A stretch of DNA of 48,373 bases from Bacteroidota bacterium (lineage in GTDB: Bacteria > Bacteroidota > Bacteroidia > Bacteroidales > JACABE01). This document shows, one piece after another, positions 5,962-15,665 of the stretch (its first letter is position 1; the number at the start of each line of letters is the position of its first letter). The notes beneath the pieces were generated by a model. The model saw only the letters and a program-made list of their open reading frames with translations. It did no database searches and was not told the DNA's origin. The stretch spans positions 1-48,373 of the forward strand of contig JAPLDQ010000007.1 in NCBI GenBank assembly GCA_026391675.1. Reading direction: 5' to 3'. A program made the position numbers and the translations under genes.

Positions 5962-6450
5962 TTAATTTTTAATGATTTTAAATAATTTCACTTCTTTATT
6001 GTTGTCAGATACTTTTAAAAAATAAGTGGAAGGAGTATATTTTTTCATAAAAATGAGCGTTTCTTTGCCTGCTATGTTTTCCCATTCTAAAAGTTTTCCA
6101 TTGATATCAAACAGGGAAAAGCTGAAAGCTGAGAACTCATGGTTTTCAATATTCAGTTTAATATAGTCATCCACAGGATTAGGAAATACAGAACAGCTAA
6201 GGCGAATGTCTTTATATGCTTCAGTTACATTTACAACTGAAATTTCAAAAGCTTGCTGAACGCCTTGAGCTTCAGAACCGGACAAACCGGTGTTGGTAGA
6301 ATAAACAAACTGTCCAATAGTATAGCTCACAGAACCTCCACTTCCTGAAGCATTACCGCCAGTGGCAGGTATGACTTCCTGTGCGTGAAGCATTCTAAAT
6401 ACAAAAACTAACAGGATTGTAGCAAATAATTTATATTTTTTGTGTCGCAT
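5962..6450 (-). CDS. Small T9SS type A sorting-domain protein
   Basis: 162 aa. A signal peptide ends near LHAQ (residue 24). Residues 25–70 are a Gly/Ser-rich segment (TGGNASGSGGSVSYTIGQ) found at the start of many short Bacteroidota T9SS proteins. Residues about 88–162 are a type A sorting domain: VFPNPVDD, then LFDINGKLL and a final TYFLKV–FKIIKN strand. No other functional domain is present, so its role is unknown; it is exported and probably anchored by the T9SS. It lies 4 bp upstream of the repeat protein and has a canonical Shine-Dalgarno site. Confidence 0.8.
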   Translation of the reverse strand: MRHKKYKLFATILLVFVFRMLHAQEVIPATGGNASGSGGSVSYTIGQFVYSTNTGLSGSEAQGVQQAFEISVVNVTEAYKDIRLSCSVFPNPVDDYIKLNIENHEFSAFSFSLFDINGKLLEWENIAGKETLIFMKKYTPSTYFLKVSDNNKEVKLFKIIKN

Positions 6451-7091: not shown

Positions 7092-10000
7092 TTATTCTTT
7101 AACGAGTTTACCGGATTGAATTAATCCGAAACTATCGTCAGTTAGCGTAACAAAATAAATTCCACTCTTCAATTTGTGGATATCCAATTCGATTCCGCCT
7201 GCTACAAAATTAAAATTATAATCTGTAACAAGCTTTCCAACTGCATCATACAATTTGATTTTTCCGTTTACCATATCAGTCTTTGCTACCTCTATGAAGA
7301 CTCTTTCACTTGCAGGGTTCGGGAAAAATAACAGATTGGTTTCATTATTACCTAATTGTTGTATTTCACCGCTCTTTGTTATATCAGGAAGTGATATTTC
7401 TTCAAAAATATAATTACGGTAAGATGAAGCATTATTTAATAATGAAATGGCAAAATTCGAATTCATTGATTTTTTGTTTTCAATGGTTTTCAAATTCTGT
7501 ATCGTATTTTCATCTATAACAGACAAACCATTTTCGATTACATCCAGATCAGTTAAACGTAAGTATTTAAAATCAGTCTGATCAGCATTTTTAGGATTAT
7601 AATTATTCATATTTATTCTGGCATTTGAATAATCTGTATGATGATAATAATAATTGTACTTAAGTATTGACTTTTCATTTTCAGTAAGCGACGACAATGC
7701 AAGCATTTGATTAAGCAGCGTGATATCAGCATTTTCCAATGAAGTGAGTATCATATTTGCATCATCAAACTGAGTGTTTGATGCATTTAATAATGTATTA
7801 TAATCACTTGTCAAACTGAATGATCCTCCAACAGAACCGGATAATACAGCGAATAGAGGTGCGTAATTATCGCAGCTGTATTTTATGTTCAGGTTGTTTT
7901 GTGGTATCGTATTGTAAATCTGATGACCGCAGGAAGCGGTAGAATAATAAGGCCGGTTGCTTACAACCTGCACCTGAGGGAATGAAACATTATTCATTCC
8001 AAAGTTATCAGCTACAGTGATATTCAAATTACTATTAATATCAATTGAGAGATTATGATTACTCCATAGTGTATTAATACCCGGATCTGCAGGAACTAAT
8101 GTCCCTATATTACCATTATAACCATTTACATTAATACCAAATGAATTATAATTATACAGATAGTTGTTTCTGATTTTTGGAAGGGTGGGTACAGCAAATG
8201 ATCTGATATCCATTGATGCATAACAATCTGTAATACAATTGCTGGTAATTTCACTCAGCGTTGACAGATCAATAGTGTATATACCTCTGGTACTACTGTA
8301 ATTTCTCATTTTTATTTCATTACACGTAATATAGTTTTTATCAGTACCTGTACCCTGGAAATAAATTCCATTGATATCAGGATTAACAATCACATTGCTG
8401 CTTATCTGGAATTTTTTTGCATTGGCTGCAATAATTCCATATCTGAAACCATTAATTTTATTCCCGACTATGCTTACATTAGATGAAAAACGTGTATATA
8501 TAGCTGAATTACTGTTGTATTTATTGAAATTGTTTGATATTTCATTATTGTTAATTTCAATAATTGTACTAACCGAATTATCGATATAAATAGAAGAAGG
8601 AGGAGCAACAGCAGCAACATTAACTTCAATTTTATTGTTTTCGATATTTGAAGGGAAAGCAGCTGTATTCAATAAAATTGAATAGGTTTGATCTGTAAAC
8701 GTATTGGAAGATAATAATCCACCTCCTTTGTATTGATAGATACCATAAGTAGTCGGATTATTGGATGCTTTGGTATTTACAAAGCCATTTTGTGATACCT
8801 GTTGCAATAATCTTGAACTGGATGTATATATCCCATAAGTACTGCTATTATTAACAAAACTATAGCAAGACGTGAATGTCGGGAAAAATTGTTCACATAC
8901 AAACTGATTTCCTGATATCGGATGATTGAAAGTATTATTATTATCAACCCTAACACCATAGTTGCAATTTGAAAAGAGGTTATTAGAAACCACACCATCG
9001 GATTGCGACTGGAAATAAAGCGCAACTTCAGCATTTTTGAAAGTTGACTCATTGATAATATTACTAAACTGTCCGTTTCCGACAAATCGTAATCCTCTCC
9101 ATGTCCCGTTAATATTACATGGTCTGAAAACTGAATTGCTTGCACGCAAATGTCCGCCATTGATAAAATCAATACCGGCACATTGTCCGAATACAACATC
9201 CATCGTAGTAATATCAAGCGTTGCTCCGGATGAAACTGTTACTATTACATTGTCAGCAATATAATATTTTCCATCCCATACAGTATTCGTGTTATAAGTA
9301 ATGTTAGCGGTAATCTTGTGGAAAGTTGTATCAATTTCTGCAAAACAGCAATTGGGCTTTTTGTTATTAATATCGATATGATAGGTTGCAATACAACTGC
9401 CTAAAGCATTAGATATGGTTATAGTATAGGTACCTGACGGTAAATTGGATACTAATAGCGGAACCCCAGGAGTAATAGTAGTCGGCATTGGAGGTACCAG
9501 TGGATTTGTAGTAATTGTAAACGGACCACCAACCGATGCAGGGTTTAGCAAAATTGAAAACCATCCATCTGAAACCGTCGGACATGAAGCATCTCCCGAA
9601 TGTAAATCCTGTAATAAGATGGTGCAGCAAAGATCATTTTTAAAACAAAATACACCGGCTGTATCGATACATCCATAGCTATTTGTTACAACAACAGATA
9701 TCTGATGGTTGCCTGTACCTGATGGAAATGCCAGATTCTGACCACTGCCAATAGGTGTAGCATAATTTCCATTGTCGTACCATTTTATTAAAGGATAAGC
9801 ATTGGCATAGGTATTATTTGGAAATAATGCATTAAGTGGCAAAGGAATGTATAAATGCAGGGTATCTATATTGCACATGGAGGCACAGCCTAATGGGAAT
9901 AAGCTCAAATCAGGTTTTGGATTAATAAAACCTGCATTTGCACTGGAAGAACATCCTGTAGCTTTGTCGGTTATAGTGAGACCGTAGAAACCGGGATCCT

Positions 10001-13000
10001 TTGCAATAATTACAGGAGTTGTAGCTCCATTCGTCCATTGATAGCTGTATTTAACTGTATTGACAGGTGTTGGTGTTAATGTAAACGATGTTCCCTGACA
10101 TGCATTTAAATAAGGGACAGTCAGTGAAGGCGTTTCAAAAAATGTCACACACATAGTATCACTTACCGTACAGGTTGTAACAGTATCGGTTACAGTTACA
10201 ATGAACTGATAGGTAACAGGCAATATTGCAGGCAGTGTTAATGTAGCCACAGTAGCATTTGTATTTGAAGGTGAAAATACAGCCCCTGCAGGGAAACTGC
10301 TCCAGCTGTAAATATAATTGGTATTAAAAATTGTTGATAGATTTACATTAACAACACTGGCTGCAGCTGCACAAACACGTCGGCTTCCTGTAATTTTTGC
10401 CTTGGTAGGTGAATGCATGTAAATATATATATGATTAGAAGTATTTGAACATCCGTTTCCATTGGTAACTTCAACCCAGTATTCTCCTATTTTATTTACA
10501 TTATATGTTGAATTATTGGCCCCACTGATTGGATTTCCATCTTTATACCATTGATAGGAACTCATTCCGTTACATGCTGATAAAGTAACAAAACCTCCGG
10601 GACAGAAAATAGTATCTGAGGCAGAGATTGTACAGTTTGGAAGTGGATTTACAGTTATTGGATTCGCTGCTTTTGCAATACATCCATAAGGGTCAACAAA
10701 AATCAATGAATCAGTATAAACTGGTGGACTTGCTACAGTATAAGCATGTTGGGTAACCTGAGTATAAGAAGTAGCACCATCACCAAATTTCCATGTAAAA
10801 CTCTGCCAAGCCACTACAGATGGAACCATAGTAAAGGTAACCGGTGTATTTACACAAACAGGTGTAGTATAAGTGAAGTTTATGTTTGGTAAAAGCACAT
10901 TTACATTCTGTGTCCATGTGGTAATACAGCCTGTTGAGGAAGTTACAGTAAGCGTAATTGTATAATTACCGGAGGCATTAACTGTTAAACCCGGTGTTGC
11001 AGCATTGGCATTGGGTGTAAACGTTCCTGTTCCCGGTCCTGATATAGCCCATAAATAACTGCTGATAGTAGCCGGTGCAATAACGGTTGACAGATTTACC
11101 AAAGTAATCTTGTCACAATTTACATAAGTTTTGAAAAATGCCAGTGCATCACATGAGCCCGGTAAAGGTCCGCCTCCGGGTTGGCCGGCTGTACAGTTAT
11201 CTATAATTACATTTATTATATTTGAATTAACAGAGCAGCCATTTTGTGTGACTTTTACATAATACTGATAAGTTCCAACAGCTAATGGTGCAATATTGAT
11301 ATTAAGTGTAGGAGCGGTAGCTAAAGGAATTAATACATTGTTCTGATACCATTGATAACTATAACCTCCTACAAACGGAGTTGATAATATTAATGTCTGG
11401 CTCACTCCTTGGCAGAATAAAGGAAGGATATTGTATGATGCCACAGCTGTTGGTGGTGCATTTACTATAACAGGAAACATGTCGTTACCGGCACAGCTTG
11501 TAACCGATAAGGTTGCAGTATTGGAAGGACCGTGCCATAGTATAGTTACTGAGTTGCTTCCCTGTCCGCTTTGTATTGTTCCCTGGCTTGCCGGACTGAT
11601 GGACCATTGATAACCTCCTGGAGGTATAGGTAGTCCGACAGTATATGTTCCGACACCATCAGCACATAAAGTACCCGGTCCTGAAATTATTGGAGGACTA
11701 TATGGATTTATCAAAATTGATGATGTAAGGGAAGGACAGAATACACCGGGACTTATTTCAACATCCTGATAAACACTGAGAACCCAGGGGCCAAAACCGG
11801 AGAATTCTACAACTATTGAATCATTGTCATCACCCATTTGGGAATTTATAGTTCCGGTTCCACCACTTATAGACCATATAAACGGACTTCCTGATTTGTT
11901 TGAGGAAATGCTGTAAACCATTTTTTTACCGGGACAAGCGTTAATACTTCCATTAATACTTCCTAATATTGGTCTTGCTTTAACTTCAACCTTCAGTATT
12001 GCATTTGGATTACAGAAAGCAGCTGTATTTATTGGTGTTGCTGTTATTGTATAAGTTCCCGGTAAAAATGAAGCCACTATGGATGATGACCCATTTCCCG
12101 ATAAAATTGTTCCACCGGCAGGTGAAATGGTCCAGTTGGCAGCACCATTTGCTGTATAGGTTTTTGGAGTTCCTTCGCAGACGATTTCGTCTCCGCCAAA
12201 AGTAAATATTGGCAATACATTAACCAATACAGAATCAGCCCCACTGCATCCTTTTAAAGGATTATTATATACACATTTAACCCAGAAAGAGCCAGGGGTA
12301 TTAAAAGTGATATTTACAGTTTTAGAATTTCTGTCCACTAAATTAAAAGCATACAAGCCTCCGCTTACCGTCCATTTGTAATAAGTGCCCGGTAACCAGG
12401 GCAGCGAATATGTTCCTGACGCTCCTACACATATAACGGTAGGTCCGCTAATTGGTAAGTTTGGATATAAAACCGGTACATTTAAAGTAGTTGAACCCGC
12501 ACAGGCCGAAGAAGGGCAACTTTGTAAAGTTACAGTTGTAGGTTGAACATAAGTGGTGAACCATTTTATTTTAATACAGCTTGTTCCTGCACCTGAGATT
12601 ATGGTACCACCTGTAACACTCCAGTTATAGCTTCCACAAACCATTGTAGTGCAAAATGAGGAGGTGTCTCCGGCACATACAGTTCCAAAACAACAGTCAT
12701 AATTTATTACGGGTCCGTCACCACTTAATACTACTATTTTTTTAGAAATGGTATCCCTGCATCCGCATGGGGCAATTTGTGGTTCACCTTGTGTATTGGG
12801 AATCAGCTGACCTGAACCCATATCAATGGCAGTTAATAATACAGTATAAGTACCGGGTACTGAATAAGAATGGTCAGGAGGGTTGGCAAGATTGGAAGAA
12901 GTTCCGTCACCGAAATCCCAATGATAAACACTGCCACCCATAGACGTATTCGTAAAATGTACCGGCGTATTTTTACAAACCGTATCTTTTGATTTTGTAA

Positions 13001-13592
13001 AATTTGCTTTTGGTCCATCTATTAAACAAATATTTTGAATAATAGAATCAACACAACTTCCTCCAACTCCAACATTACTGGTAACAACTTTAATTGTTCC
13101 TGTAGTTCCTGAACCCCACACAATTATCATAGGGTTGCCTGTAAATGAAACAGGCGTTCCTCCGGTAACAGTCCATGTATAAGTAAAACTCGGATCATTC
13201 GGATACACAGTATAAGTATGGGCTGTATTTTTACAGGCTGCAATTTTTTGAACAATATTACCAAGCGGGCTTTGCGGATGTGCGCAGCTGCCTTCTGCAG
13301 GGCATATTTCAACAGCATCTTTTAAAATAAATTCAGGACAACAGGCTTTTGATGTCATCAACAGTATGTTATTTGAATTTATCGGTTTGATATCAATTGT
13401 AGAAGGGAATAAATAATTCAATTTTGAACTTGCGGAAGCAGTAATCTCTTTTAAAAATCCTCCTTTTACAACAGTATTATTTGTTGGATTAAATGCACTA
13501 TTATCTGATAAATAGACATTTGGATATAGATTATTCATTCCTGAAATGAATAAAACAATCAACAATATTTTAAAATGTAATTTTTTTCTCAT
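7092..13592 (-). CDS. Giant PKD-repeat / beta-helix surface protein with T9SS sorting domain
   Basis: 2166 aa. A signal peptide is seen at residues 1–24. PKD domains are marked by the HWDFGDGTSS motif near residue 229 and WKFGDGATSY near 937; between and after them lie many Ig/PKD-like beta-sandwich units, each with paired cysteines and motifs such as YQWYKDG and YSYQWTNG. Residues about 1430–1890 read as a right-handed parallel beta-helix (repeated NNxFSN, SNVI and NNEISN strands). The last 80 residues are a type A sorting domain (LLFFPNPASERV, then KLYDAVGKLV and GIYFVTLTD). It is secreted through the T9SS and displayed on the cell surface. The family is usually considered adhesive or involved in glycan contact; no catalytic residues are recognised. 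It has its own terminator and a possible structured leader. Confidence 0.9.
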   Translation of the reverse strand: MRKKLHFKILLIVLFISGMNNLYPNVYLSDNSAFNPTNNTVVKGGFLKEITASASSKLNYLFPSTIDIKPINSNNILLMTSKACCPEFILKDAVEICPAEGSCAHPQSPLGNIVQKIAACKNTAHTYTVYPNDPSFTYTWTVTGGTPVSFTGNPMIIVWGSGTTGTIKVVTSNVGVGGSCVDSIIQNICLIDGPKANFTKSKDTVCKNTPVHFTNTSMGGSVYHWDFGDGTSSNLANPPDHSYSVPGTYTVLLTAIDMGSGQLIPNTQGEPQIAPCGCRDTISKKIVVLSGDGPVINYDCCFGTVCAGDTSSFCTTMVCGSYNWSVTGGTIISGAGTSCIKIKWFTTYVQPTTVTLQSCPSSACAGSTTLNVPVLYPNLPISGPTVICVGASGTYSLPWLPGTYYKWTVSGGLYAFNLVDRNSKTVNITFNTPGSFWVKCVYNNPLKGCSGADSVLVNVLPIFTFGGDEIVCEGTPKTYTANGAANWTISPAGGTILSGNGSSSIVASFLPGTYTITATPINTAAFCNPNAILKVEVKARPILGSINGSINACPGKKMVYSISSNKSGSPFIWSISGGTGTINSQMGDDNDSIVVEFSGFGPWVLSVYQDVEISPGVFCPSLTSSILINPYSPPIISGPGTLCADGVGTYTVGLPIPPGGYQWSISPASQGTIQSGQGSNSVTILWHGPSNTATLSVTSCAGNDMFPVIVNAPPTAVASYNILPLFCQGVSQTLILSTPFVGGYSYQWYQNNVLIPLATAPTLNINIAPLAVGTYQYYVKVTQNGCSVNSNIINVIIDNCTAGQPGGGPLPGSCDALAFFKTYVNCDKITLVNLSTVIAPATISSYLWAISGPGTGTFTPNANAATPGLTVNASGNYTITLTVTSSTGCITTWTQNVNVLLPNINFTYTTPVCVNTPVTFTMVPSVVAWQSFTWKFGDGATSYTQVTQHAYTVASPPVYTDSLIFVDPYGCIAKAANPITVNPLPNCTISASDTIFCPGGFVTLSACNGMSSYQWYKDGNPISGANNSTYNVNKIGEYWVEVTNGNGCSNTSNHIYIYMHSPTKAKITGSRRVCAAAASVVNVNLSTIFNTNYIYSWSSFPAGAVFSPSNTNATVATLTLPAILPVTYQFIVTVTDTVTTCTVSDTMCVTFFETPSLTVPYLNACQGTSFTLTPTPVNTVKYSYQWTNGATTPVIIAKDPGFYGLTITDKATGCSSSANAGFINPKPDLSLFPLGCASMCNIDTLHLYIPLPLNALFPNNTYANAYPLIKWYDNGNYATPIGSGQNLAFPSGTGNHQISVVVTNSYGCIDTAGVFCFKNDLCCTILLQDLHSGDASCPTVSDGWFSILLNPASVGGPFTITTNPLVPPMPTTITPGVPLLVSNLPSGTYTITISNALGSCIATYHIDINNKKPNCCFAEIDTTFHKITANITYNTNTVWDGKYYIADNVIVTVSSGATLDITTMDVVFGQCAGIDFINGGHLRASNSVFRPCNINGTWRGLRFVGNGQFSNIINESTFKNAEVALYFQSQSDGVVSNNLFSNCNYGVRVDNNNTFNHPISGNQFVCEQFFPTFTSCYSFVNNSSTYGIYTSSSRLLQQVSQNGFVNTKASNNPTTYGIYQYKGGGLLSSNTFTDQTYSILLNTAAFPSNIENNKIEVNVAAVAPPSSIYIDNSVSTIIEINNNEISNNFNKYNSNSAIYTRFSSNVSIVGNKINGFRYGIIAANAKKFQISSNVIVNPDINGIYFQGTGTDKNYITCNEIKMRNYSSTRGIYTIDLSTLSEITSNCITDCYASMDIRSFAVPTLPKIRNNYLYNYNSFGINVNGYNGNIGTLVPADPGINTLWSNHNLSIDINSNLNITVADNFGMNNVSFPQVQVVSNRPYYSTASCGHQIYNTIPQNNLNIKYSCDNYAPLFAVLSGSVGGSFSLTSDYNTLLNASNTQFDDANMILTSLENADITLLNQMLALSSLTENEKSILKYNYYYHHTDYSNARINMNNYNPKNADQTDFKYLRLTDLDVIENGLSVIDENTIQNLKTIENKKSMNSNFAISLLNNASSYRNYIFEEISLPDITKSGEIQQLGNNETNLLFFPNPASERVFIEVAKTDMVNGKIKLYDAVGKLVTDYNFNFVAGGIELDIHKLKSGIYFVTLTDDSFGLIQSGKLVKE

Positions 13593-13610
13593 GATCTTAA
13601 ATTATTAATT

Positions 13611-13690
13611 TCCCTACTCATAAGGCTTTTCAGTTTCGCCCCGTTTGATTTCGACTGTCTTAGCCATCGAAAATGGTTACCGGACTCCAT
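13611..13690 (-). promoter_or_regulatory. Possible structured RNA leader of the giant surface-protein gene
   Basis: The 5' leader of the 13592 gene contains a markedly GC-richer stretch in an AT-rich spacer. Read on the reverse strand it can form CCAT–TTTCG–ATGG, and next to it GGCT..AGCC enclosing CAGT..ACTG, with A-rich internal loops (AAATCAAACG, GCGAAAC). The two helices share bases (13664–13665), so they could be mutually exclusive. It ends about 20 bases before the ATG. It lacks the core signatures that I know for GEMM, TPP, cobalamin, SAM-I, glycine or purine riboswitches. Pairing is by eye; a family assignment is not made. Confidence 0.35.
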
Positions 13691-13873
13691 TTTTATATTA
13701 CAGACTAAAGGTTATTATACTACTATTGAACATTTATTGTTAATTAATTGTTATAATTTTTCGCTTATCAATTTCCTGAATATATTTATTTTAAATGTAA
13801 AAATTTATAAATCAATAGAATGTGAAGTTAATAAGGGATTATTAAAAATGGATATACGAATATTTTTGATGGT

Positions 13874-14704
13874 ATGGAAATAAACATTGAATTGTTTAGA
13901 CAACAGTTAGGAATACAAAAATATAGTGATAGCAGTATAAATTCATACATTAACTGTATGAAAAAAATTAAGCCCTTCTTATATAAATATGAGTTGGATA
14001 TCATTAGTGCTGAAATTATCGAAAGTCATATTCAATGGCTGTATGCAGAGAAAACTATAAGCCAGTCGTATCAAAAACAGATTATAATGGCTATTCAGAA
14101 GTATTTTGAACTGGTACTTAAAAAAAATATTAATCTGACAGCTATCTATCCTAAACAGATTTCTTATCATTTGCCTAATTGTATCAGTAAATCCGAAATT
14201 AAGGAAATGATTGAGAAAACTACCAATATAAGGCATAAAATCATAATTTGTCTGTTGTATAGTGCAGGATTACGTCTTTTTGAATTGCTCAATCTTTGCT
14301 TAAAAGATATTGATGTTGAAAACCAGCTGATTCATATATATCAATCAAAAGAAAAAGCAAAAAGAATGCTAATGCTTTCAACTGTTTTGGTGGATTTATT
14401 GCCAAAATATTATCAAAAATATCAACCTAAGTATTTTGTTATTGAAGGTAAGGGAGGAAAACCAATGACAGCCAAGAGTATTCAGCAGATAGTTAAAACT
14501 GCAGCATTAAAATCAGGTATCAAAGTTCCGGTTACTCCGCATTGTTTGCGACATAGTTTTGCATCACATTTATTGGAGAATGGTACTGATATACATTATG
14601 TCCAGAAGCTATTAGGTCATCAATCAATAAAAACAACAGAAAATTATACCCATACAAATGATTTCCATAAAATGAAAATTCAGAGCCCCATGGATTTGTT
14701 CTAA
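13874..14704 (+). CDS. Tyrosine recombinase (XerC/D or IntI-like)
   Basis: 276 aa, the usual size of a compact tyrosine recombinase. Residues 1–85 are the SAM-like core-binding domain. The catalytic domain shows Arg in SAGLRLFELL, Lys in the QSKEKAKR beta-hairpin, HCLRHSFASHLL (His-x-x-Arg), GH in KLLGHQS and the nucleophile Tyr in TTENYTH. The C-terminus IQSPMDLF recalls the SPLD ending of integron integrases, but I see no IntI-specific insertion. It strand-exchanges DNA at a specific site. It stands alone: no excisionase, attC array or other mobile genes adjoin it. It could be a remnant of an element or a resident recombinase acting on nearby inverted DNA. Confidence 0.88.
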   Translation: MEINIELFRQQLGIQKYSDSSINSYINCMKKIKPFLYKYELDIISAEIIESHIQWLYAEKTISQSYQKQIIMAIQKYFELVLKKNINLTAIYPKQISYHLPNCISKSEIKEMIEKTTNIRHKIIICLLYSAGLRLFELLNLCLKDIDVENQLIHIYQSKEKAKRMLMLSTVLVDLLPKYYQKYQPKYFVIEGKGGKPMTAKSIQQIVKTAALKSGIKVPVTPHCLRHSFASHLLENGTDIHYVQKLLGHQSIKTTENYTHTNDFHKMKIQSPMDLF

Positions 14705-14766: not shown

Positions 14767-14966
14767 GTTTTTATATTAAGATTCTAGAGAAAACGACAAT
14801 AATTTATACATATTGAAAATTATGATATTATATTTGTAAAGAATTAAATTTCTTTTAGTTATATAAAAGAGATTGAACTTCTGTCAATATTCAGATGCAA
14901 TAAACAATTTAAAAATATGACGTGACGGGAATCCGGACGGATAGTGAAATTTAAAAATTGATAAAA

Positions 14967-15665
14967 ATGAATAAGGGTATTTTACTTTTTTATTTAATTA
15001 TGCTTGTCAATTTAGTATCAGGACAGGATATTATCATAAAGAAAAACGGTGATGAAATAAAGTGTTATGTTTCGGAGATTACGTTCACGGCGATTAAGTA
15101 TCAGCTCCCTTTTCGTACAGGAGTGACGAATAAAATTCTCAAGAAAGATGTATCTATAATTAAATATGAAAATGGAAAGATAGATACAATTAATTATACA
15201 TCTGATTTAAATCGCTATCAAAATATTCGTACACAGATTATAAAAAAAGGAGATAATTTTTATCAGAATGATAAAAAATTATCGCTTTCTGAATTGAAAG
15301 AAATATTAGTAACAGATTCTGCTACAGAATATAATATGCAGAATTTTGAAACATACCATAATTTTGGTAATATTATTTCAGTAGCAGGAATTTTTTTCTT
15401 AGTATATGGTGGCTGTGATGCGATATTTTTTCCTCAAAAATTTTTTGATAATAAAGAATCTAAATTTCTTTATACCGATATACCAATTATTTTTGGAGGT
15501 GCTGCTGTGTGTGTTTTTTCTTTAGTTTTTTTAATACCTGCAAATACCAATTTAAACAAAGCTGTAAGTATCTATAATTCAAAAGCTCAAAATACTGCTA
15601 CAAGTGCTTTTAAAATAGATTTTGTTATTAATCCTGCCGGATTTGGGTTAATTATGAAGTTTTAG
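14967..15665 (+). CDS. Uncharacterised Bacteroidota membrane protein
   Basis: I do not recognise a named family. From the ATG at 14967 the product is 232 aa with a signal-like N-terminus (ILLFYLIMLVNLVSGQ). Residues 20–75 carry a pattern common in Bacteroidota secreted proteins, KKNGDEIKCYVSEIT followed by IKYQ and KKDVSIIKYENG. Two hydrophobic helices follow, near residues 133–152 and 170–192, so it is probably an inner-membrane protein. A TTG three codons earlier is possible, but the ATG is the better start. A TATATTTG box at 14829–14836 resembles a Bacteroidota -7 element. It stands alone between a recombinase and the SOS cassette. Confidence 0.6.
   Translation: MNKGILLFYLIMLVNLVSGQDIIIKKNGDEIKCYVSEITFTAIKYQLPFRTGVTNKILKKDVSIIKYENGKIDTINYTSDLNRYQNIRTQIIKKGDNFYQNDKKLSLSELKEILVTDSATEYNMQNFETYHNFGNIISVAGIFFLVYGGCDAIFFPQKFFDNKESKFLYTDIPIIFGGAAVCVFSLVFLIPANTNLNKAVSIYNSKAQNTATSAFKIDFVINPAGFGLIMKF

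Follow-up and report, generated by a model that had tools for sequence, protein, structure and literature searches.

The question raised by this locus was what the leader of a very large surface protein gene contains, and whether it carries a regulatory RNA. The window, that is, the whole 48,373-nt stretch of Bacteroidota DNA analyzed here, encodes on its minus strand a 2166-aa PKD/Ig-like protein, and an earlier note had described a GC-richer island in the AT-rich leader of this gene (13593-13700, minus strand) as a possible structured cis-regulatory RNA. The GC content was 0.45 over 13618-13690 compared to 0.19 over 13701-13870, and the island lies directly 5' of the ATG, which bore out the description. 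Folded as RNA, 13593-13700 had an ordinary energy (z -0.14; 89 of 200 shuffles were equally stable), and such plain energies are uninformative here because the key pairs are pseudoknots.

Identification of the Leader Element

At the gathering level, an Rfam scan of the whole window matched tRNA alone. A permissive covariance-model scan matched the island to RF03081, the DUF805 RNA, with E-values of 1.9e-6 in a 9-kb scan and 2.0e-7 in a whole-genome search. The score of 47.8 bits is under the gathering score of 51.1, which places the copy outside the family by score and is the reason why the standard scan missed it. It falls below the cut-off because a 25-nt insert splits the hairpin P1 from the conserved core, and since the orthologous leaders score above it, the window copy was classed as an insert-bearing variant. 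The features are as follows.

7092-13592, minus strand: gene behind the element; its 2166-aa PKD/Ig-like product carries a sorting domain for type IX secretion
13593-13614, minus strand: A-rich initiation region, 22 nt from GAGUA to AUG including the PK2 GG, nearly fixed in length in the family
13606-13695, minus strand: DUF805-clan RNA (RF03081 match, model positions 1-68)
13613-13614, minus strand: PK2 3' strand GG, partner of CU 13632-13633
13615-13646, minus strand: conserved core AAACGGGGCGAAACUGAAAAGCCUUAUGAGUA, zero mismatches to the core pattern
13624-13626, minus strand: P2 3' strand GCC, pairs with GGC 13638-13640
13632-13633, minus strand: PK2 5' strand CU, within the P2 loop
13638-13640, minus strand: P2 5' strand GGC (Rfam consensus line and covariation)
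13641-13642, minus strand: PK1 3' strand GG, pairs with the CC of the P1 loop
13647-13671, minus strand: insert of 25 nt between P1 and core, without counterpart in the orthologous leaders L272 and L273
13667-13671 with 13650-13654, minus strand: possible insert hairpin UUCGA/UCGAA
13672-13691, minus strand: P1 hairpin AAUGG(AGUCCGGUAA)CCAUU
13682-13683, minus strand: PK1 5' strand CC, within the P1 loop; its register is not exclusive

The P1 hairpin with a 10-nt AG... loop, a feature of RF03081, is present in the window copy, and the core AAACGGGG..GAAAAGCC..GAGUAGG with P2 is matched with zero mismatches. The copy stands just before the coding region, 22 nt from the ATG, which is the modal value among the copies. 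It thus shares P1, the core and the place before a gene with the DUF805 RNA, and differs in the 25-nt insert, the sub-gathering score and the gene behind it, which encodes the PKD/T9SS protein and not the DUF805 protein that gave the family its name. In addition, when the genome that contains the window was searched at the DNA level, two short relatives appeared (L002 and L003), located upstream of unrelated genes by 23 and 22 nt, and at a permissive threshold these and the window copy all matched RF03081 (72.4, 65.9, and 47.8 bits, respectively). Whole-genome searches of the same genome gave five DUF805 matches and six matches to the sister family DUF805b.

On sequence comparison, we identify the island as an insert-bearing copy of the DUF805 RNA, an orphan cis-regulatory family of the Rfam clan CL00115. 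The family was reportedly described in a 2017 survey. The view of the earlier note that no known riboswitch core is present held for the described riboswitches (cmscan), and has to be amended by the orphan family RF03081, which matches just under its cut-off. The note had also asked for homologous leaders and compensatory base changes; both were found, so its proposal of a structured cis-regulatory RNA was supported and not refuted.

Orthologous Leaders and the Insert

The first 300 aa of the window protein had a match in five of the five genomes of the taxonomic family searched, its own included. The leader of the G001 orthologue (70% identity) is a clean DUF805 RNA of 78.8 bits, 23 nt before the ATG, and that of the G004 orthologue (69% identity) is a clean copy of 71.0 bits, 21 nt before the ATG; neither has the insert. 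The G002 and G003 orthologues, of the same genus, have a different N-terminus and no DUF805 RNA in the leader, of which the G002 contig gives about 110 nt before the ATG. The 5' modules of the orthologues were of two kinds, either the RNA with one signal-peptide region or no RNA with another (MKSIFT...). The module without RNA was seen in L274 and L275 compared to the RNA module in L271-L273, as if leader and N-terminus had been swapped together.

A divergent tyrosine recombinase gene (Phage_integrase, 276 aa) lies next to the PKD gene at 13874-14704 on the plus strand. The recombinase was retained beside the PKD orthologues in L272 (67%), L273 (64%), and L275 (58%) and was not seen in the short contig stretch L274. 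The giant T9SS surface protein and a recombinase have remained genomic neighbors over time. The 235-aa ORF 3' of it (14958-15665, plus strand) had no Pfam match at E 0.001.

One other insert-bearing copy was found in the genus. This copy, L039 (G001:C21), precedes a different gene and has an insert of similar length with identical outer letters. Inserts elsewhere, between PK1 and P2, occurred in L077, L081, L291, and L292. At the PK1/P2 junction, a hairpin-like insert containing ACTGTTTCGCACAGT recurred before different genes in the genus g8 (L077:4175; L081, about 6190-6290; L292, about 1632-1730).

Evaluation of the Alternative Helices

The earlier note had built its structure on nested 4-nt inverted pairs, two of them sharing bases as in a switch. 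The words are all present in the leader, and the CCAT/ATGG pairing is real, being the P1 stem of the DUF805 RNA. As structure, GGCT/AGCC and CAGT/ACTG did not hold up. Both link the 25-nt insert to the conserved core, and their complementarity was at chance level: the leader has seven complementary 4-mers with at least two G/C, whereas 1000 dinucleotide shuffles averaged 5.4 and 307 of them reached seven. Moreover, both words of either pair never occurred together in the three related leaders compared (two orthologous leaders and L039). L039 has AGCC and CAGT and lacks GGCT and ACTG, so neither pair is formable there. The base-sharing helices could be formed in the window leader alone of the four compared.

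A switch specific to this copy, in which GGCU..CAGU of the insert would pair with AGCC and ACUG of the core and melt P2/PK2, would draw on the folding energies. P1 with the alternative helices gave -8.2 kcal/mol compared to -7.6 kcal/mol for P1, the insert hairpin and P2, with pseudoknots not scored. Because the alternative is about as stable as the pseudoknot-less family fold, competition between insert and P2 is possible in the window copy. With complementarity that 307 of 1000 shuffles equal and pairs that the two orthologous leaders and L039 cannot form, such a copy-specific switch is improbable. As a functional switch, the alternative helices were rejected, being at chance level and not conserved.

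Structure of the DUF805 RNA

To define the structure, 223 distinct core copies were gathered from 240 loci by overlapping searches, which are not an even sample of genomes, and all DUF805 and DUF805b sets are biased to high-scoring copies. The mutual-information alignment contained 199 of the 223 copies, as 23 were removed by the filters on P1, mismatches or length and one was an identical row. Set A2 contained 99 DUF805 sequences (175 kept, 100 after dereplication); L039 was taken out because its true P1 sits further upstream. Because their start codons were doubtful (spacings of 2, 34, and 50), three L204 representatives were placed outside set A1.

The structure supported by covariation comprises the hairpin P1, the short stem P2, and the pseudoknots PK1 and PK2, which are not drawn in the consensus line of Rfam. 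In A2, P1, PK1, P2, and PK2 together had 95.2% of cells paired. The covariation was 0.218 compared to 0.122 ± 0.006 in shuffles, and none of 500 shuffles was as high, with relatedness ignored by this control. The full structure had 60 double-change cells compared to 13.7 in shuffles and was better than every slid register. P1 itself showed changes on both sides in five of its five pairs.

The corrected mutual information (199 rows) ranked four P1 pairs on top, followed by the PK2 pair 36x54, the best pair outside P1, which joins the P2 loop to the base right after GAGUA. Its counts were C-G 154, U-G 22, U-A 18, C-A 3, and A-G 2. The Fisher p value was 7e-12, and 2.5e-3 and 5e-3 after dereplication at 80% (30 rows) and 75% (15 rows), respectively. 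In A2, PK2 alone was 98.5% paired with eight double-change cells compared to 1.7 in shuffles; in this set, neither the number of pair types nor that of pairs showing a double change was above shuffles (444 of 500 reached both). In the window copy, PK2 consists of a C-G and a U-G pair. PK1 alone had 96.5% of cells paired and four double-change cells compared to 0.7. It has only 2 bp, however, and its partner slid by +1 or +2 still paired in 93-95%. The PK1 associations faded on dereplication, with p values of 0.0093 and 0.083 at 80% and of 0.37 and 0.33 at 75%. PK1 is the weaker claim because neighboring registers pair well and its associations fade. Family, pairs, position and orthologous leaders all come from such comparison, which argues firmly for PK2 and weakly for PK1.

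The Shared Core in the Sister Family DUF805b

The DUF805b RNA (RF02914) shares P2, CYGAAAA, GAGUA-RG, PK2, and the distance to the AUG with the window copy. It differs in having no P1/PK1, a PK2 of 3 bp with a variable outer pair, and a model of only 35 positions. A set of 70 copies was used, of which 30 were loci returned by the search and 40 were picked from further listed matches. The outer PK2 pair, a position at which the Rfam consensus line has no pair, was Watson-Crick in 69 of the 70 copies and G-U in one (L352), compared to 28.3 Watson-Crick pairs expected from the marginals. All four types occurred (G-C 37, U-A 23, C-G 6, A-U 3). The covariation of P2 and PK2 was 0.669 compared to 0.159 ± 0.017 in shuffles and 0.086 at best in slid registers; the number of pair types was unremarkable against shuffles (106 of 500). 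P2 and PK2 are therefore strongly supported by covariation in DUF805b. Since this family lacks P1 and has a covarying P2 and PK2, the core that the clan has in common is, on this comparison, an H-type pseudoknot in which GAAAA and GAGUA are invariant, and to which P1 and PK1 are accessory.

Position Before the Start Codon

Within 150 nt, 213 of the 223 DUF805 copies were followed by an ORF that starts with ATG and encodes 45 aa or more. The spacing from GAGUA to ATG was 18-27 nt in 183 of the 223, and the commonest value, 22, is that of the window. On the antisense side, an ATG ORF was found for 27 of 223 copies and at 18-27 nt for none of them, and random positions in the same loci gave 504 and 42 of 1115, respectively. 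For DUF805b, 69 of 70 copies had a callable ORF at a median of 25 nt, 61 of them at 18-29 nt. TPP riboswitches in the same bacterial class lay 28-372 nt from the ATG (30 of 30; search range 400 nt compared to 150 nt for DUF805), and 13 of the 30 had an ATG within 150 nt (28-107 nt).

In the 183 spacer sequences, A was present at -3, -6, -12, and -13 in 73, 66, 77, and 74%, respectively. A at these four positions has been described as a positive determinant in F. johnsoniae, in which pairing tends to be lower across nucleotides -20 to +20 (PMC6847099). The 3' end of the pseudoknot, about 20 nt before the AUG, stands about at the -20 boundary of this region. The AGGA of GUAGGA was considered as a Shine-Dalgarno sequence. 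This is unlikely, because the letter after GG varies together with its PK2 partner in DUF805b and SD-like words occurred in only 11 of the 183 spacers.

The anti-SD sequence is described as sequestered in Bacteroidia (PMC9976891), which would suit a constitutive enhancer, a pseudoknot that docks on the 30S platform, raises initiation and senses nothing. The nearly fixed spacing, the ordinary A-rich initiation region and the unrelated targets would suit it as well, but two pseudoknots and an accessory P1 are, as an argument only, elaborate for a plain enhancer, and we regard this explanation as quite unlikely.

TAnnTTK showed a weak rise some 25 nt upstream of P1 (21 in the bin, 213 over 29 bins, 203 sequences), and no firm promoter claim is therefore made. 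Of the 148 copies with an upstream gene on the same strand, 22 began less than 40 nt after its stop, with the P1 start approximated. In some sets of neighboring genes, every gene had its own DUF805 RNA copy. Copies inside apparent operons and one copy per neighboring gene fit per-gene translational control. In G001, a similar two-gene set was seen on two contigs (L079:5954-7761 and L080:6906-8747), with a copy of its own before four of four genes.

In several genomes, copies follow one another on a single strand at intervals of 0.5-2.4 kb, which could also be read as a cassette array, the island being an attC-like DNA site for the tyrosine recombinase at 13874-14704. This recombinase is conserved next to the orthologues in three further genomes at 58-67% identity. 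The covariation of the pseudoknot and the nearly fixed distance to start codons speak against this, as does G003, which retains the recombinase without the RNA, and a DNA element of this kind is extremely unlikely. Integron attC sites are spanned by an imperfect palindrome and lie 3' of cassette genes; a general inverted-repeat scan listed no such palindrome over the core, and the copies are tied to start codons.

Proposed Mode of Action

From sequence and position, the DUF805 RNA is probably a translational control pseudoknot at the initiation region of the gene behind it. In this model, the leader, which would be transcribed with its gene, folds into P1 and a short P2 tied together by PK1 and PK2. 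PK1 would join the CC of the P1 loop to the GG just 5' of P2, and PK2 would join the P2 loop to the GG just after GAGUA. The element stops about 20 nt 5' of the AUG, at the border of the initiation region, in hosts mostly without Shine-Dalgarno pairing, and the formation or stabilization of PK2 would change the access of the 30S subunit. The position of the element suggests translation as the level of its expression-platform role, and we infer that translation is very probably what it acts on.

The preQ1-I and SAM-II riboswitches are H-type pseudoknots as well. The DUF805 RNA resembles them in its small size, its H-type topology and its A-rich segments close to the initiation region, and differs in that its pseudoknot contains no Shine-Dalgarno strand and no metabolic gene theme was seen. 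Their Rfam models had no match in the window copy locus (L001), L002, and L003 with cmscan at E up to 5. A pseudoknot backed by covariation, an offset of about 20 nt from the AUG and unrelated targets would turn an orphan "cis-reg" entry into a testable model of translational control, set in a phylum mostly without Shine-Dalgarno pairing.

Target Genes and Distribution

The genes behind the DUF805 RNA were unrelated: 213 proteins fell into 122 clusters, 95 of which were singletons. By representatives, the largest clusters were DUF805 (19), a zinc-ribbon protein (13), and an SCO4226-like protein (12), and the aquaporin-family cluster had eight; the DUF805 protein cluster stood behind 19 of the 213 copies with a called gene. 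The 69 DUF805b targets formed 45 clusters, with families including RiPP-like leaders, PixA, DUF2589, caspase, and muramidase. The target scan covered 119 of 122 DUF805 and 45 of 45 DUF805b cluster representatives. Surface and secreted proteins recurred among the families seen, and no metabolic pathway was found among the first 25 of 71 families for DUF805 or among 20 of 20 and 16 of 16 for DUF805b. A metabolite riboswitch defined by its gene theme was set aside, as no pathway emerged from the families seen and no gene theme pointed to a ligand.

All signaling-molecule riboswitch classes are described as having once been orphans or found among the representatives of another class (PMC7266159), and by this pattern the diffuse DUF805 regulon may mark an unrecognized signal. 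By analogy with these former orphans, the likeliest trigger would be a diffusible signal of cell state, to which we give slightly less than an even chance. A broader model would make the DUF805/DUF805b clan one H-type pseudoknot that senses a global signaling molecule and adjusts, for each gene separately, how surface, secreted and social proteins are translated in bacteria that lack Shine-Dalgarno pairing. The window copy would then be a genus-level subtype whose insert hairpin competes with P2 and re-sets the threshold. This composite is tentative and, taken as a whole, rather unlikely.

At an E-value of 0.001 or below, DUF805 matches occurred in 46 of 247 genomes of the phylum (35 over the cut-off) and in 152 of 395 genomes of the class (109 over the cut-off), and DUF805b matches in 92 of 296 genomes (59 over the cut-off), with up to 16 in one genome. 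This patchiness of the DUF805 RNA counts against a protein-bound translational operator, in which a regulator or ribosomal protein would bind GAAAA and GAGUA and block or recruit the 30S subunit. The extreme conservation of the unpaired letters, the very diverse targets and the nearly constant distance between the compact pseudoknot and the AUG are in its favor. The T4 gene 32 mRNA pseudoknot is an operator of this type. It resembles the DUF805 RNA in lying upstream of the AUG, and differs in that a single gene is autoregulated by its product, compared to many unrelated genes here. We know of no candidate protein, and consider the operator unlikely. We retain the translational control pseudoknot as the preferred reading.

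Among 14 control genomes, there was one DUF805 match (Bacteroides ihuae) and none for DUF805b. A literature search found no paper on the DUF805 RNA, the accession RF02914 itself occurring once in one paper, and passages on structured 5' regions in a transcriptome study of F. psychrophilum (PMC9723704) do not mention this family. An exact-pattern scan of named genomes gave at least 118 stretches. Exact cores were also seen in MAGs named Ignavibacteria/Ignavibacteriales, Calditrichaceae, Cloacimonadota, Kapaibacterium, Verrucomicrobia, and Syntrophomonadaceae, for which mis-binning is possible; the loci are L126, L137, L142, L147, L149, L151, L155, L165, and L170. At least 15 of about 150 listed copies from the class start within 700 bases of the first base of their contig, a number that seems high. 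The sole viral contig with an exact pattern match, IMGVR_UViG_3300007523_000148, carries a DUF805 RNA at L093:1751-1779, and the start of the protein downstream resembles that of the L163 protein.
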